A stretch of DNA of 40,818 nucleotides, from the NCBI GenBank assembly GCA_011176545.1, contig DUEN01000053.1, positions 9,970 through 50,787 on the forward strand, read 5' to 3'. The stretch comes from Caldilineae bacterium. Its GTDB lineage: Bacteria > Chloroflexota > Anaerolineae > DUEN01. Positions 10,472-24,249 of the stretch are shown piece by piece; position 1 is the stretch's first letter, and every line of letters starts with the position of its first letter. The notes beneath the pieces are model-generated. The model was not told the DNA's origin, did not search any database, and was given only the letters and a program-made list of their open reading frames with translations. The position numbers were made by a program, and so were the translations under genes.

Positions 10472-10500
10472 TTGATAAGCTAGAAATTTTTAGTTATAAT
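10472..10500 (+). promoter_or_regulatory. sigma70-type promoter for the octaheme cytochrome operon
   Basis: TTGATA (10472-10477), a 17-base spacer and TATAAT (10495-10500) lie on the plus strand, divergent from the lon promoter and 28 bases from its palindrome. The leader to the ATG at 10635 would be about 128 nt. Confidence 0.75.
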
Positions 10501-10634
10501 GGTGTGTGAGGAATGGCACATATGAACAGCTGGCGTGAGTTACTGTTTTGTTCTTCTAGGGATCTCTTCTCCCCCTCTGGTAGGAGCCTCTCGCCCTACA
10601 TCCCATCCATGACGCAAAGTGATAGGAGGATCGT

Positions 10635-11912
10635 ATGACGCAAGATGCACAACCAGGCTGGATCCGTGTCACGCGGGTGTTGGTCTTTGGGGTGGTGGCT
10701 GTGATCATCGTGCTCGGGTTGGCCCTGATTGTGATGACCATCAGCCGCTCAGCCGCCCGGGTGGAGCCTGAACGGGTGAACGCCCTGGCCGAGAGTGATG
10801 ACGAATGCGTGACATGCCATCGTCGCACGACGCCGGGCATCGTGGCGCAATACGGCGTGAGCTCCATGGCTGCTGCTGAGGTGAGCTGTCGGGACTGCCA
10901 CGAAGTGAAGGCGGACTATCCGGGCGCCGTGGAGCATGAGGGAACCTATGTCCTGAGCAGTCCAACTACGGCCATATGTGAACGGTGCCATTCCGCCGAG
11001 GTGGCGCAGTTTAACCAGAGCCGACATGGGCTTCCCGCTTATATCGCGTATGCGGGCACGGAGGATCTCACCCCTGAGCTGCTCGCTGTATATGAGGCGA
11101 TCCCAGAGGGGGGCTTTAATCCTGACCGGATGAGGAATGCCCTCTATGCTCTGGAGGGGCCGGAGGTCACGCGCTTCGCCTGCGAGAGCTGTCATAATAT
11201 CGGCAAGCCAGCGGCTGATGGCTCCGTTGGACAGTGCCAGAAGTGCCACCTGCGGCATGAGTTCAGCCTGGAGCAGGCTCGCAGGCCTGAGACGTGTAAC
11301 GCTTGCCACATCGGGCCGGACCATCCGCAGTGGGAGATCTATCAGGAGTCGCCGCATGGCATCGCTTACATGACCGGCGGGGATCACTGGAACTGGGAGG
11401 CCGAGCCAGGTACCTTGACGGTGGAGGACTTTCCGGCCCCCACGTGTGCGACCTGCCACATCAGCGGGTTCGGCGCCAGCGGCACCACGCACGACGTGGG
11501 CGATCGTCTGACGTGGTATTTGTTCGCTCCCATCAGCCAGCGACGGCCAAGCTGGCAGGATAATCGGGCGCGCATGCAGAACGTATGTCGTGAGTGCCAC
11601 AATGAGAACTTCATTGAGGACTTCTACGCCGCGGCCGATAAGGCGACCGAGAAGGTGAACGCGTGGGTTGAGGAGAGCAACCAGATCGTGGCGCCGTTGA
11701 AGGAGCAGGGCCTCTTGACCGCTGAGCCTTTCGATGAGCCCATCGACTTCGCCTACTTCAACCTCTGGCACCATTGGGGCCGGACGGCCAAGTTCGGCGT
11801 CTGGATGCAAGGGCCGGATTACGTGCAGTGGCATGGTGTCTATGAGATCCTGAACGACCTGGCCGAGCTGCGCGAGATGGCCAAGGAGAAGCTTGAGGCA
11901 GCGGGGCAGTAG
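10635..11912 (+). CDS. octaheme c-type cytochrome, hydroxylamine oxidoreductase (HAO) family
   Basis: The 425-residue protein has eight CxxCH heme sites with histidines at 62, 89, 119, 187, 205, 225, 275 and 322. A membrane helix or uncleaved signal (about residues 13-36) puts the body outside the cytoplasmic membrane. The middle block, with FACESCHNIGKP, GQCQKCHLRHEFSLEQARRP and CHIGPDHPQWEIYQESPHGI, is the HAO-family signature. The fourth heme (C183-H187) would correspond to the catalytic P460 position. The family oxidises hydroxylamine or reduces nitrite to it. The part after the last heme (GPDYVQWHGVYEI) contains tyrosines, but whether the P460-crosslinking Tyr is present needs an alignment, so direction of catalysis is open. 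AGGAGG is 5 bases before the ATG. A membrane-protein gene follows 2 bases after the stop. Confidence 0.87.
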   Translation: MTQDAQPGWIRVTRVLVFGVVAVIIVLGLALIVMTISRSAARVEPERVNALAESDDECVTCHRRTTPGIVAQYGVSSMAAAEVSCRDCHEVKADYPGAVEHEGTYVLSSPTTAICERCHSAEVAQFNQSRHGLPAYIAYAGTEDLTPELLAVYEAIPEGGFNPDRMRNALYALEGPEVTRFACESCHNIGKPAADGSVGQCQKCHLRHEFSLEQARRPETCNACHIGPDHPQWEIYQESPHGIAYMTGGDHWNWEAEPGTLTVEDFPAPTCATCHISGFGASGTTHDVGDRLTWYLFAPISQRRPSWQDNRARMQNVCRECHNENFIEDFYAAADKATEKVNAWVEESNQIVAPLKEQGLLTAEPFDEPIDFAYFNLWHHWGRTAKFGVWMQGPDYVQWHGVYEILNDLAELREMAKEKLEAAGQ

Positions 11913-11914
11913 CC

Positions 11915-12817
11915 ATGTATCACCTGGCGACGGTCATTCCAAGGCTGCGATCGGCGCGGCGTCTGCTGCTCACCCGCGATCAGTGGATGTTGCTGATGGC
12001 CGCCATCAACGAGCTCTTCCTGGGGCTCGATACCTATCTGGCCCACAAGATCAGCGGGACGATCCGCCCGTATGAGTGGATCCCCATCATCTTCGGTACG
12101 GTGGCCGGCGTGCTCCTGTTGCTGGCGGGCCTGCTCGCCCTGAGGCGACGGAGCCTGGCGACGGTGATCGCCACACTTGTGTTGGCGAGCAGCATCGTCG
12201 TGGGGCTCCTGGGCGCGTATTTCCACCTGGTGCGAATCGTTCTACCCAACGCGCCGCCGGGGCAACGGGTGTTCCTGGATCTGTTCGTCTGGGGGCCTCC
12301 TATTCTGGGACCGCTCACTTTTGCCCTGGTGGGGGTCCTGGGCATCAGCGCCGCATGGATCGAGGATCCACCGGACAGCGGCGTGCTCGTCTTGATACGC
12401 GGATGGCGGCTGCACTTGCCCTACAGTAAGACGTGCGCTTACTTCTTCTGGGTGAGTCTAGGCACCCTGGCGACGGTGATCAGCAGCGTGCTGGACCATG
12501 CCCGGACGGGGTTCGAGAACCCGTGGCTGTGGGTTCCGACGGTGGCTGGCATTTTCGGCACCGCGGTTGCGTTCGCCCTCGGAGCCATCGAGCGTCCCAC
12601 CAGAGCGGATCTTCTCACTTATGTGGCTGCGATGCTGCTGCTCATCGCGGTAGGCGTGATCGGGGCTGTGCTGCACATCAGCGCGAACCTGGTGGCCGGA
12701 TACGCCATCGTCCCCGAGCGCTTTATCCGGGGGGCCCCATTCCTGGCGCCGCTTCTGTTCTCGAACATGGGGGCGCTCGGGCTCATCGCCTTAATGGATC
12801 CCAGCGAGCGGGATTGA
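11915..12817 (+). CDS. polytopic membrane protein partnered with the HAO-like cytochrome (function unknown)
   Basis: The 300-residue protein has about eight membrane segments and no heme-binding CxxCH, Fe-S or nucleotide motif. I do not recognise the family. Histidines close to or inside segments (YLAHKISG, GAYFHLVRIV, SSVLDHAR, AVLHISANLV) could bind heme b or take part in quinone chemistry, but this is speculation. It begins 2 bases after the cytochrome stop and ends just before a strong terminator, so the two genes form a closed bicistronic unit. In characterised systems HAO passes electrons via separate cytochromes such as c554 and cM552/NrfH; none is encoded here, so this protein is the best local candidate for the membrane link. 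Confidence 0.8.
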   Translation: MYHLATVIPRLRSARRLLLTRDQWMLLMAAINELFLGLDTYLAHKISGTIRPYEWIPIIFGTVAGVLLLLAGLLALRRRSLATVIATLVLASSIVVGLLGAYFHLVRIVLPNAPPGQRVFLDLFVWGPPILGPLTFALVGVLGISAAWIEDPPDSGVLVLIRGWRLHLPYSKTCAYFFWVSLGTLATVISSVLDHARTGFENPWLWVPTVAGIFGTAVAFALGAIERPTRADLLTYVAAMLLLIAVGVIGAVLHISANLVAGYAIVPERFIRGAPFLAPLLFSNMGALGLIALMDPSERD

Positions 12818-12842
12818 GAGAGCGACCCTCAGACTCTCACAG

Positions 12843-12875
12843 AAACCCCGGCCTCTTCAAGAGGCCGGGGTTTTT
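12843..12875 (+). terminator. rho-independent terminator of the cytochrome operon
   Basis: CCCCGGCCTC (12846-12855) pairs with GAGGCCGGGG (12861-12870), extended by AAA/TTT outside and closed by a 5-base loop, then runs into TTTTT (12871-12875). It lies 26 bases after the membrane-protein stop. It is the clearest terminator in the window. Confidence 0.93.
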
Positions 12876-13075: not shown

Positions 13076-13124
13076 TTTTGACGTTGTGGGCCTCTTCATC
13101 TGTGTTCATCGGAGGGAGCGAACA

Positions 13125-16100
13125 ATGCCGCGACCTTTATGCGATTCACCATATATTTTCGGTATCCACGAGGAAGGAGGCGAGCGATATATGCTCGCCA
13201 AGGGCAAGCCTGGGTGGATCGTGTTCACTGAGGAGCTGGGAGCGGACCCGAACGATCACTCCGGGCGGGATTATCGGCAGTGGTCGAATCAAGACCTGGG
13301 CATCATCGTGCGGCTCAACCATGGCTATGAGCCGAACGGGACGATCCCGCATTCGAGCCAGTATGAGGCGTTCGCTCAGCGGTGTGCGAACTTCGTGGCA
13401 GCATCGCAAGGCGCGCACATATGGATCATCGGTAATGAGCCCAACATGTCGGCCGAGCGCCCCGGCGTACAGCGAGATCTCAGCGTATCACCCCCTCGAT
13501 TGATCAACCCTGGGGAGATCATCACGCCGGAGCTGTACGTTAGGTGCTATCGGCTTTGCCGGGAGGCGATCAAGAGCGTCCCCGGGCACGAGAATGATCA
13601 GGTGTGCGTGGCGGCGGTGGCGCCGTGGAATAACGAGACCAAATACCCTGGGAACGAGCTGGGGGATTGGGTGATCTACCTCCGGGACGTGCTCCAGATG
13701 CTGGGTCCGGAGGAATGCGACGGGATCACATTGCACACCTATACGCATGGCTCAGATCCCAGCCTGATCTATAGCGAAGCGCGCATGGGGCCTCCCTTCG
13801 AGAACCGATATTATAACTTCTATGCCTATCGGGACTTCATGGAGGCGATCCCGGAGTCGATGAGGCATCTGCCAGTCTACATCACGGAGACTGATCAGAA
13901 CGAGCCGTGGGCGGACGTGAATAGCGGATGGGTGCGGAACGCGTATGCGGAGATTAACTGGTGGAATCAGCAACCGGGCCATCAGCAGATCCGACTGCTG
14001 GCGCTGTATCGGTGGCCTCCTCGGGATCAATGGGTGATCGAGGGGAAGCAGGGGGTGATCGAGGATTTCCTGATGGCCCTGGATAACGATTATCGATGGC
14101 GGGAGACGCCCGTCCCGGTCCGCGAACCCTACCGCGTGACCTTCCTCTCTCATGACACGCCGACGCAGATGAGCCCGGGGGAGATCTACACAGTCCGTCT
14201 CCATTTGCGGAACGAGGGGAGCCGCACCTGGCGACAGGACGGCCCCAACCCCGTCCACGTCGGCTATCACTGGTTTGACCAGGATGGTGATCCCGTGCTG
14301 CTCCCTCCGGAGCACGACTTCCGCTCCGAGCTTCCCTCCGACATCGCCCCCGATGAGGAGGTCGAGGTCGAGGCGCGAGTAGCCGCGCCGTCGCAGGTTG
14401 GCTCATTCACGCTGGAGTGGGACCTGGTCGAGGAAGGAATCACCTGGTTCCAGGACCAGGGGAGCGAGCCACTCTCCGTCCCCGTAGAGGTGGCGATCCC
14501 TGAGGAGTATTTCGAGGAGACGGGGCAATGGGTGCGCGGGCCCTTCCTCCTCTTCCTGCGCGAGCAGGGGATCGACGTCATCGGGCTGCCCGTGTCGCCG
14601 CAGTTCCTCGATGAGGAGACGGGCCGGGAAGTTCAATATTTCGAGAAGGTGGCGTTGGAGTTGATCGACGGCCAAGTGCGTGTGCACCCGACGGGGGGCG
14701 AGGCATACCGCGCTCGTTTGCGTGTTCGGGAACTGCAACAGCGGATCGAGGAGTTGTCGCAGGAGATCGAACGGTTGCGTCGAGAGCTTGAAAAACGTCC
14801 ACCGGTGGCTTATGTGCCGCGGCCTGAGATTGAGAACGTGATCGATCAGCTGGATCGGGACCCGGAAGGCTTCTTTAAGCGGCCCTTGGAGCGGGTGCGA
14901 TATCTCGTCTTCAATCACACGGCCGTCCCGGCCTCGGTCCCGGTGGATCGCCTGGCGGCCGCGCATCGCCAACGGGGGTTGCCTGGCTTCGCCGGCCAGT
15001 TCCTCATCACGGGGGATGGCCGTATCCTCCAGACGGAGCCGTTGGATGAGGTCATCGATGATCAACAGGTGTGGTCGGTGGAGGGCATCAACATCTACGT
15101 CGCGGGCAATTTCATGGAGGATGTGCCCACGCCGGCCCAGATCGAGGCGGCGGCGCGGCTTTGCGCCTGGCTTCTGCAAGAGTTGGGCTTGTCCGAGGCG
15201 GCGATCGTGGGGCTATCCGAGCTGATCACCACCCAATCGCCGGGGACGCAATGGCTGGAGGGCGCCCGCTGGAAGGATATGCTCTTGCGGCGGGTGCGCG
15301 ATCTGCGATATCCATCGCCCGCTCCCGAGCTGGAGCAGGAGGTCGCCCGCCTACAGTCAGAACTGGAGGCTACTCGCCAGCGGGCCGAGGCGGCGGAAGC
15401 GCGAGTCGAGGAGCTCCAGCAGGAGGTGGAGAGGCTGCGTCAGCGGCTAGAGGAGATGCCCTCTGGCCCCATCCCTAAGCCGGCCTTCCGGGTCATCGTG
15501 GACGAGCTGCCGAAGAGCGATGATCCGGAGAACGTCTATGACACGCGTGATCGCTCCGAGATCACGGCTATCGTCGTGCATCACACGGCGGTCCCGCCCA
15601 ACATCGACGCCTATCGCGTGGCGGACGCGCATGTCAGGATCAACGGCTGGCCGGGCATCGGATATCACTTCTTCATCAACCCTGATGGCACCATCGAGCA
15701 GACCAACTGGCTGGAGACGGTCTCGGCTCACACGCGCGGTCATAATCGGTATAGCGTCGGCATCGCCTTCGCCGGGGACTTCACCTCCGTGATCCCGACG
15801 CCCGCGCAGATCGAGCGCGGTGGCCACCTCATTGCTTGGTTGATGCAGGAGCTGAACATCCCCCTGGAGCGCGTGCGCGGGCACAAGGAGATGCCGGATC
15901 AGACGACGGTCTGTCCTGGGGATCAATGGGATAGCGGCCAACAGTGGCGGGAGTTGCTCTTCCGGCGGATCCGGGCCGTGCAGGCTGGCCAACTGGATGT
16001 CCAGAAGACCATCGGCCACTACATGCTGTTCTGGTGGCGCAACCCGGACTATTGGGCGCAAGCGGATTGGGAAAACGCCCAGAATTACATCCGCCACTTC

Positions 16101-16316
16101 CGCCCCACCTGCGGCTTCCTGGTGGAGGACGCCATGCAGGCGGAGTACGTGACCATCGTCGGGGGCGTGGCCGGCGTCTCCTGGCAGGATGAGGAGCGGC
16201 TACGCTTGGCTGGCTGCAAAGTGGAGCGCATCGCGGGGGCGAACGAGGAGGAGACCAAGGCCATGCTCGACGAGTTGGTGGCCCTGGGACGCCGCTTCAG
16301 GACCTTTGACGTGTAG
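13125..16316 (+). CDS. large multidomain protein: GH-like TIM barrel, NBR1-like Ig domain, two PGRP/amidase_2 domains (first degenerate)
   Basis: A 1063-residue protein. Residues 1 to ~330 resemble a clan-A glycoside hydrolase: Glu105 in IWIIGNEPN fits the acid/base and Glu255 in VYITETDQNEPW the nucleophile. An Ig-like domain of the NBR1 type follows (about 336-457, with RNEGSRTWRQDGP). Then come a short alpha/beta stretch, a coiled coil (528-561), a PGRP-like domain (about 590-725), a second coiled coil (734-782), and a second PGRP/N-acetylmuramoyl-L-alanine amidase domain with apparent zinc ligands His819, His920 and Cys930. The first PGRP copy has Asn597, Ser698 and Ser705 at those places and should not bind zinc. 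A ~105-residue C-terminal domain is unassigned. No signal peptide is visible, which is odd for a wall enzyme. ATG 13125 follows GGAGGGAG; an in-frame GTG at 13086 is less likely. Confidence 0.82.
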   Translation: MPRPLCDSPYIFGIHEEGGERYMLAKGKPGWIVFTEELGADPNDHSGRDYRQWSNQDLGIIVRLNHGYEPNGTIPHSSQYEAFAQRCANFVAASQGAHIWIIGNEPNMSAERPGVQRDLSVSPPRLINPGEIITPELYVRCYRLCREAIKSVPGHENDQVCVAAVAPWNNETKYPGNELGDWVIYLRDVLQMLGPEECDGITLHTYTHGSDPSLIYSEARMGPPFENRYYNFYAYRDFMEAIPESMRHLPVYITETDQNEPWADVNSGWVRNAYAEINWWNQQPGHQQIRLLALYRWPPRDQWVIEGKQGVIEDFLMALDNDYRWRETPVPVREPYRVTFLSHDTPTQMSPGEIYTVRLHLRNEGSRTWRQDGPNPVHVGYHWFDQDGDPVLLPPEHDFRSELPSDIAPDEEVEVEARVAAPSQVGSFTLEWDLVEEGITWFQDQGSEPLSVPVEVAIPEEYFEETGQWVRGPFLLFLREQGIDVIGLPVSPQFLDEETGREVQYFEKVALELIDGQVRVHPTGGEAYRARLRVRELQQRIEELSQEIERLRRELEKRPPVAYVPRPEIENVIDQLDRDPEGFFKRPLERVRYLVFNHTAVPASVPVDRLAAAHRQRGLPGFAGQFLITGDGRILQTEPLDEVIDDQQVWSVEGINIYVAGNFMEDVPTPAQIEAAARLCAWLLQELGLSEAAIVGLSELITTQSPGTQWLEGARWKDMLLRRVRDLRYPSPAPELEQEVARLQSELEATRQRAEAAEARVEELQQEVERLRQRLEEMPSGPIPKPAFRVIVDELPKSDDPENVYDTRDRSEITAIVVHHTAVPPNIDAYRVADAHVRINGWPGIGYHFFINPDGTIEQTNWLETVSAHTRGHNRYSVGIAFAGDFTSVIPTPAQIERGGHLIAWLMQELNIPLERVRGHKEMPDQTTVCPGDQWDSGQQWRELLFRRIRAVQAGQLDVQKTIGHYMLFWWRNPDYWAQADWENAQNYIRHFRPTCGFLVEDAMQAEYVTIVGGVAGVSWQDEERLRLAGCKVERIAGANEEETKAMLDELVALGRRFRTFDV

Positions 16317-22765: not shown

Positions 22766-24208
22766 TCATGAGGAAGTTTCACCTGTCTGTGCAGGCTCCT
22801 CCATCGGCTTGAACGCCAGAAGCGTCAGCACACGCTGACGAAATGCCAGGCGGCCATCTCGCTCGCGACGCACCTGTAGCCCGGCGGCGTCGCCCTCGAT
22901 CGCCGCGTCGAGCATGGCAGTCACGGCCTCCACCGTCTCCTCGTCGGTGTGTTCCGTGTCGAGCCACTCATCCAGATGACGTTCGATCTCATCCGTCTCG
23001 TCTTGTTCGATGACGAGACCGGCTTCGGCTACGAGGTCGCGTATCTGATCCGCGGTGAGCAACGTCACATGGGAGCTATCCCGCCTCAGCTCAATGACAT
23101 CCTGCGTGGCGCGCTTGACGGGGTCTACATCGCCGACGGGCTCATAAATGAGGATACGGCCTCCCGGTCGGCACACGCGCATCATCTCGCGAATCGCCGC
23201 GGCGGCATCTTCGAAGTGGTGCAGCCCATAGGCACACGTGACCAGGTCGAACGCGTTGTCCGGGAAGGGGAGCTGCTCGGGATGCGCCCAGCGTATGTGC
23301 AGATTCTCGACGCCGGCCTCGAGGCGAGCTCGCTCGGCCTGTTCGAGGGAATCCGGGCTGGTGTCCACGGCGATGATCCGTTCCACATGGGGGGCCAGCG
23401 CTACAGCCAACGTGCCATCACCGGTGGCCATATCGAGTACCTTCTCATGCGGTTGTGGTTGGGCGGCGCGCACGACATGTTCAATCTGAGCCTGCGTGAA
23501 ATCATGAAGCCGCAAGGTAGGCGTGAGCGATTGTGGCTCCGTCTCCGTCGCAGCGGGGGTGAGTTCCTGATCGGCTATCTCCTCCTGTGAAGGAGGTTGA
23601 GCGAGCGGTCGCAAAGGGAGAAGGAGATGCTCGGTCTTGTTGACGTAGACCAGCATCCACTGTTTCTCCGCCCAGACGAGCTTATGGATCGCCGTGTTCT
23701 CCTGATAGACCCGGACGTGGTGCCCGCCGATCAGAGAGCGTAGCAAGGTCGCCATCGTCCCTCCGTGGGTCACGATGGCGATACGCTGTCCCCAGAAGCG
23801 ATCCAGCACGGCCCGTAAGGCGCGCACCACTCGATCGCGGAAGGCGACGTAGGTGGGGGCCGTCTCCAGGGTGGGGATCCAAGGCTCATCGGGTAAGCCG
23901 CGGCTCTCGGCAAACGAGGGGAACTCCTCCCAATAGGGATGGCTCGTCTCCTCCAGGCCGTATTGGATGTGGACTGGTCGGCCTAGATGCATGGCCAGGA
24001 TGTCGGCTGTCTGTCGAGCGCGCAATAGAGGGCTGGAGATGATCACGTCGATGGGCTCGTTCTCCGCCAGCCACTCGGCCAGACGGCGGGCCTGTTGCCA
24101 TCCTCGGGAGGTAAGGCCGCTGTCGGGGCTGAAATCGGCCCCATAGATATTGCTCAGGGATTCCGCGTGGCGGATTAAAAGCAGGTGAGTCGTATCGGAG
24201 GTTTCCAT
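22766..24208 (-). CDS. fusion: histidine phosphatase (phosphoglycerate mutase family) plus class I SAM methyltransferase
   Basis: A 480-residue two-domain protein. The N-terminal domain (to about 200) has the histidine phosphatase motif LLLIRHAESLSN with nucleophile His14, VIISSPLLRARQTADIL, and the second catalytic His148 in IVTHGGTMATLL. A glutamine/threonine-rich linker (about 203-232) joins a UbiE/Methyltransf_11-type domain: KVLDMATGDGTLAVAL binds S-adenosylmethionine, with AVDTSPDSLEQA, FDLVTCAYGLHHFED and MRVCRPGGRILIYEP. The whole is one open frame with no sign of error. Substrates are unknown; a shared small-molecule substrate or lipid/quinone pathway is possible. ATG 24208 is preceded by GGGTGGGG; GTG 24217 is a less likely start. 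Confidence 0.88.
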   Translation of the reverse strand: METSDTTHLLLIRHAESLSNIYGADFSPDSGLTSRGWQQARRLAEWLAENEPIDVIISSPLLRARQTADILAMHLGRPVHIQYGLEETSHPYWEEFPSFAESRGLPDEPWIPTLETAPTYVAFRDRVVRALRAVLDRFWGQRIAIVTHGGTMATLLRSLIGGHHVRVYQENTAIHKLVWAEKQWMLVYVNKTEHLLLPLRPLAQPPSQEEIADQELTPAATETEPQSLTPTLRLHDFTQAQIEHVVRAAQPQPHEKVLDMATGDGTLAVALAPHVERIIAVDTSPDSLEQAERARLEAGVENLHIRWAHPEQLPFPDNAFDLVTCAYGLHHFEDAAAAIREMMRVCRPGGRILIYEPVGDVDPVKRATQDVIELRRDSSHVTLLTADQIRDLVAEAGLVIEQDETDEIERHLDEWLDTEHTDEETVEAVTAMLDAAIEGDAAGLQVRRERDGRLAFRQRVLTLLAFKPMEEPAQTGETSS

Positions 24209-24249
24209 GAGCCCCACCCTGGATTAACTGGAGACGAATCGCCTCGATG

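Follow-up and report, generated by a model that had tools for sequence, protein, structure and literature searches.

Two adjacent genes of the window, i.e., the whole 40,818-nucleotide stretch of Caldilineae bacterium DNA analysed here, are read, with somewhat better than even confidence, as encoding a membrane-bound respiratory reductase in which electrons would run from quinol to a four-histidine membrane cytochrome, then to an octaheme cytochrome c and finally to nitrite or hydroxylamine. The coupling of both genes is strongly supported by their conservation across genomes, among them those of many uncultured Chloroflexota. The novelty lies in the membrane partner and not in the octaheme, and the open-access literature searched, which excludes most subscription papers, yielded no account of a pair like this one.

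The upstream gene (10635..11912, + strand) encodes a 425-aa octaheme cytochrome c. This ORF holds the CHIGPDHPQWEIYQ block and eight CxxCH motifs in all, PF13447 matches it in a Pfam search (E 1.1e-31), and sequence comparison with the PDB retrieves the HAO family only, namely the Ignicoccus octaheme (4qo5), HAO (1fgj), HDH (6hif) and HAOr (6h5l). Although the structural model is mediocre (pLDDT 77), the best ten matches of a fold search all belong to the same family, the closest octaheme structures being Kuenenia HAOr/rHao (kustc0458, PDB 6h5l) and the Ignicoccus hospitalis protein (PDB 4qo5). Motifs, sequence and fold thus agree with the HAO-type octaheme announced by the earlier note. An N-terminal membrane anchor spans approximately residues 13-36, and an N-terminal hydrophobic segment is present in 76/76 relatives. 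A Shine-Dalgarno-like AGGAGG (10624..10629, + strand), read directly from the sequence, stands 5 nt 5' of the ATG.

The second gene (11915..12817, + strand) starts 2 bases past the octaheme stop codon. Both are followed by an intrinsic terminator (12841..12875, + strand) made of a 16-bp stem and a T-run (-29 kcal/mol, z = -8.7), a hairpin strength reached by 0/200 shuffles. They are preceded by a sigma-70-like promoter, TTGATA-N17-TATAAT (10472..10500, + strand), a pattern match only, with 11/12 consensus positions; as three sigma-70-like sites are observed in the region vs 1.1 expected, this site is suggestive only. With this nuance for the promoter, the two signals do flank exactly the two genes, as had been proposed. 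On the 5' side lies a divergent LonB-like protease gene (10274-7857, - strand) and on the 3' side an amidase gene (13086-16316), the 1076-aa product of which contains two Amidase_2 regions and coiled-coil-like spacers. Further along the window, a 483-aa ORF (22766-24217) joins a histidine phosphatase domain with a SAM methyltransferase domain.

The product of the second gene is a 300-aa membrane protein, proposed here as a b-type quinol dehydrogenase subunit. The polytopic protein of about eight TM segments that had been noticed directly downstream of the octaheme is recovered by AlphaFold2 as eight hydrophobic helical passes (pLDDT 88, pTM 0.87). Comparison of its two halves by hhalign (probability 97.95, E 3e-13) shows them to be homologous, and the protein is on this basis a duplicated 4-TM bundle. 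Four histidines are invariant in the 75-sequence family alignment as well as in 43 family and 22 distant sequences: His44 at the end of TM1 (codon 12044..12046), His104 in TM3 (12224..12226), His195 at the end of TM5 (12497..12499) and His254 in TM7 (12674..12676), all on the + strand. His104 and His254 each belong to a GxxGxxxH motif. In the predicted structure, the pairs 44/104 and 195/254 stand at matching ends of TM1/TM3 and TM5/TM7, so that the topology displays paired membrane histidines at equal depth as expected of b-type cytochromes. Bis-His haem b sites usually take this form: two helices each contribute a histidine at the same depth, next to small residues. The four residues are therefore probable, predicted b-haem ligands; alternatively, they could bind Cu/Fe or participate in proton transfer. 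The absence of haem motifs stated by the earlier note holds for c-type haem, but these histidines had been overlooked. A positive-inside count gives 10 K+R on one side vs 3 on the other, which places all four histidines on the outer, predicted periplasmic side, the same as the octaheme. E54 and D194 are kept in the close family and not in the distant one.

Known families give little guidance on this membrane protein. No credible match was obtained in Pfam, NCBIfam or PDB sequence searches, and Foldseek of the model against the PDB returned nothing below E 0.06. The soluble helical metalloprotein 3d19 (TM 0.43) was judged a chance architectural analogy. Nine members match Phage_holin_5_2 (best E 2.6e-5), which was put down to chance hydrophobicity or very remote similarity. 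No solved structure resembles the protein or offers an analogy for its putative haem geometry.

The 8-TM protein alone was used as query against 84,980 named species genomes, and 79 loci were returned, mostly from Anaerolineae and other Chloroflexota. A few come from MAGs labelled Gemmatimonadetes, Actinomycetota/Acidimicrobiia, Verrucomicrobia and Tectomicrobia, labels for which contamination is possible. An octaheme gene stands directly upstream in 77/79 loci, that is, in all those where the contig reaches: 75 are intact, one is frameshifted (L111) and one is truncated by the contig (L128), the other two loci being contig ends (L094 and L163). In the 75 intact loci, the eight-CxxCH gene shares the strand of the 8-TM gene, and in most of them no more than about 140 bases separate the two (508 in L145). 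For the reverse test, an octaheme search in 396 class genomes was compared with an 8-TM search in the same genomes. In 43/43 genomes whose octaheme shares at least about 60% identity, the 8-TM gene was present; none of the octahemes of 34-42% identity has it. Because the first search used the 8-TM protein only, this co-occurrence is not forced by the query. The coupling, previously deduced from gene order in one genome, is consequently extended to a near-absolute co-conservation in both directions, no member of the 8-TM family being found apart from an octaheme gene on contigs long enough to tell. Fragments of the 8-TM gene of about 30-63 residues in G451, G593, G651, G659 and G711 look like decayed or broken copies. 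Genes for CcmE, CcmF and a CcmG-like thioredoxin occur downstream of the pair in about a dozen loci (L088-L166) and not in the window.

Oxidative HAOs need a Tyr cross-linked to haem 4 (P460), whereas reductive epsilon-Hao proteins have a Trp there and a Met eight residues earlier (PMC8940962). In the octaheme, this position was located with the help of the Met-8-Trp rule and of an alignment to 4qo5, which has a Phe aligned with Trp399. Met391 and Trp399 (codons 11805..11831, + strand) are invariant in 76/76 octahemes, i.e., the reductive signature is present and the P460 cross-linking Tyr typical of oxidative HAO/HDH (EC 1.7.2.6-type) is replaced by Trp. The search for this Tyr suggested by the earlier note thus came out negative, and the hydroxylamine oxidation it had kept among the options is disfavoured: judging from these residues, the octaheme is unlikely to be a hydroxylamine oxidase. 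It resembles in this respect HAOr, a reductive HAO without cross-link.

Described reverse-HURM systems pair an epsilon-Hao-type octaheme with a NapC/NrfH/cM552 tetraheme (PMC3701875). No such partner was found at the pair loci. Indeed, in 37/38 loci no other 3-7-haem ORF is located within 6.5 kb of the pair, and the one at L111 is the frameshifted octaheme of that locus itself. The lack of a separate multihaem carrier, first seen at one locus, is thereby extended to many genomes. PF03264 (NapC/NrfH family) has no match in 24/43 pair-bearing genomes, and its matches in the remaining ones are mostly partial, inside larger multihaem ORFs; NrfA is absent in 41/43. The opposite situation envisaged by the earlier note, a known NrfH-type carrier encoded elsewhere and a pair that is not co-conserved, was not encountered, as the NrfH type is absent in 24/43 genomes and the pair is co-conserved. 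Hcp, needed in the described reverse-HURM pathway, was found in 17/43 pair-bearing genomes, and the full pathway therefore cannot be general here.

A sample of loci with more distant octahemes was examined for neighbours. In the clade L202-L206 and L208-L210, the octaheme adjoins a tetraheme, and the four tetrahemes tested are of NapC/NirT/NrfH type (PF03264, E 1e-27 to 1e-30). In the clade L198-L201, one polypeptide of 738-761 aa carries CopD-like membrane and cytochrome-b5 domains N-terminal to the octaheme (e.g., L199:3544-5829). Five further sampled octahemes have neither a tetraheme nor a fusion. Maximum-likelihood analysis groups each of the three types, 8-TM, tetraheme and fusion, into one clade (ultrafast bootstrap 100), and long branches between clades leave the clade order unsure. 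As partner types are clade-specific, the membrane module was exchanged as a unit, and on this comparative basis the 8-TM protein fills the slot of the quinol dehydrogenase in a sister octaheme clade. A role as quinone link is likely, favoured by the recognised quinol-dehydrogenase module occupying the same place in that other clade. In a GC-rich genome (G477), a 907-aa ORF with eight CxxCH (L211:1812-4535) may be a further octaheme fusion, unless the reading frame is simply overlong.

In other Chloroflexota (L007-L033), the 8-TM protein has homologues that are about 30% identical, with a gluconate-2-dehydrogenase subunit 3-like gene adjacent in 26/27 loci, the exception being at a contig end. 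A GMC oxidoreductase gene is often found there too, where the stretch reaches, and the membrane gene comes first in this order. The same gene order, with all four histidines kept, is found on plasmid pACIX903 of Granulicella tundricola MP5ACTX9 (L222:4689-5636), where the membrane gene is annotated 'hypothetical protein'. Gluconate 2-dehydrogenase-type complexes consist of a GMC flavoprotein, subunit 3 and a cytochrome c; the distant 8-TM relatives adjoin the first two, whereas no cytochrome c gene was seen beside them in the operons examined. These flavoprotein operons represent another enzyme needing a membrane electron acceptor and support the electron-link reading. A membrane module common to a flavoprotein dehydrogenase and an octaheme reductase is best explained, from these gene neighbourhoods, as the connection that passes electrons to or from the quinone pool. 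Whether the 8-TM protein founds an undescribed family is evenly balanced in our judgement; such a family would comprise membrane quinone oxidoreductases of duplicated structure, with two b haems (or another four-His arrangement) and a fold outside the PDB. They would be interchangeable between HAO-type octaheme reductases, in Chloroflexota and a few MAGs assigned to other phyla, and GMC/gluconate-2-dehydrogenase-type flavoproteins, in Chloroflexota and Acidobacteriota.

The b-type haems, quinone link, electron direction and substrate that we infer would combine as follows. An N-terminal helix would hold the octaheme at the outer surface of the cytoplasmic membrane, where this epsilon-Hao/HAOr-like reductive enzyme may reduce nitrite and/or hydroxylamine, possibly NO; the first two substrates are suggested by family membership only. 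The 8-TM protein would be its dedicated quinol dehydrogenase, with two b-type haems close to the periplasmic face that are most likely bound by His44/His104 and His195/His254. From menaquinol, electrons would pass to these membrane b haems, along the octaheme chain and to the active-site haem. The 8-TM protein would thereby do the job done elsewhere by the c-type tetraheme NrfH/NapC/cM552.

The proposed pair can be compared with several known systems. The reverse HURM of Campylobacterota (HaoA, e.g., in Nautilia profundicola, PMC3701875) likewise has an octaheme devoid of the P460 Tyr and a proposed quinol feed via a dedicated membrane partner, but this partner is a NapC/NrfH-family tetraheme c cytochrome, whereas the partner encoded in the window is an 8-TM protein that lacks c haem and carries four invariant histidines. 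NrfHA follows the same route, from quinol through a membrane subunit to a periplasmic multihaem c nitrite reductase; it differs in being composed of a pentahaem NrfA and a tetraheme NrfH. We know of no 8-TM partner for Kuenenia HAOr or the Ignicoccus octaheme. In an Ignavibacteriae MAG, an octaheme tetrathionate reductase is clustered with cytochrome b561 (PMC7509429), also an octaheme reductase beside a proposed b-type membrane cytochrome, although both partners belong to other families.

NrfD and PsrC have eight TM helices in two four-helix bundles, an arrangement shared by the 8-TM protein. The latter might thus bind quinone without haem like NrfD/PsrC/DmsC anchors, its four histidines, with E54 and D194, being quinone or proton sites. 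A weak DmsC match in 2/22 members (best E 0.006) points the same way but was judged chance hydrophobic or very remote. This option is doubtful: no significant NrfD/DmsC profile match was obtained, and no PsrC-like structure is among the Foldseek matches listed. Furthermore, NrfD-type anchors partner an Fe-S subunit, absent at the pair, and paired histidines with GxxGxxxH in each repeat are more like haem ligation. It is still less probable that the 8-TM protein serves the octaheme only in assembly, in haem handling or as an anchor. The Ccm genes downstream of some pairs, which also agree with the preferred reading, would fit such a role, but the octaheme carries its own anchor, the relatives serve GMC flavoproteins, whose examined subunits contain no c-type haem, and a quinol-dehydrogenase-type module fills the same slot in the sister clade.

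A forward HURM-type system, in which the octaheme oxidises hydroxylamine (or some other reduced N compound) and the 8-TM protein delivers the electrons to quinone, would be workable with the same architecture and with an octaheme of the HAO family; the Met-8-Trp signature of nitrite-reducing epsilon-Hao, in place of the P460 Tyr throughout the 76 sequences, makes it improbable. The octaheme might instead reduce a non-nitrogen-oxide substrate (e.g., sulfite, tetrathionate or metal) with the same membrane wiring, which we consider unlikely. Multihaem reductases are promiscuous (PMC8840924), and none of the genes recurring near the pair was recognised as a nitrogen gene; however, sequence and fold group the octaheme with HAO, HAOr and the Ignicoccus octaheme and not with octaheme tetrathionate reductase.

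The preferred reading of a quinol-fed nitrite/hydroxylamine reductase, if right, would reveal an undescribed connection between quinone pool and multihaem nitrogen reductases, used by Chloroflexota that are mostly devoid of NrfA and NrfH. It would also imply nitrite/hydroxylamine reduction in genomes whose genes may be annotated hydroxylamine oxidoreductase and read as those of nitrifiers. An unclassified membrane family that recurs with GMC flavoproteins, including in G. tundricola MP5ACTX9, would also receive its first hypothesis on function. Another contig of the genome from which the window originates (C124, L036:7278-16296) carries a large multihaem cluster with a second octaheme of 487 aa, a 9-haem protein with a PKD-like domain, and 13-haem and 8-haem ORFs, between which Rieske- and cytochrome-b-like ORFs were recognised by eye.
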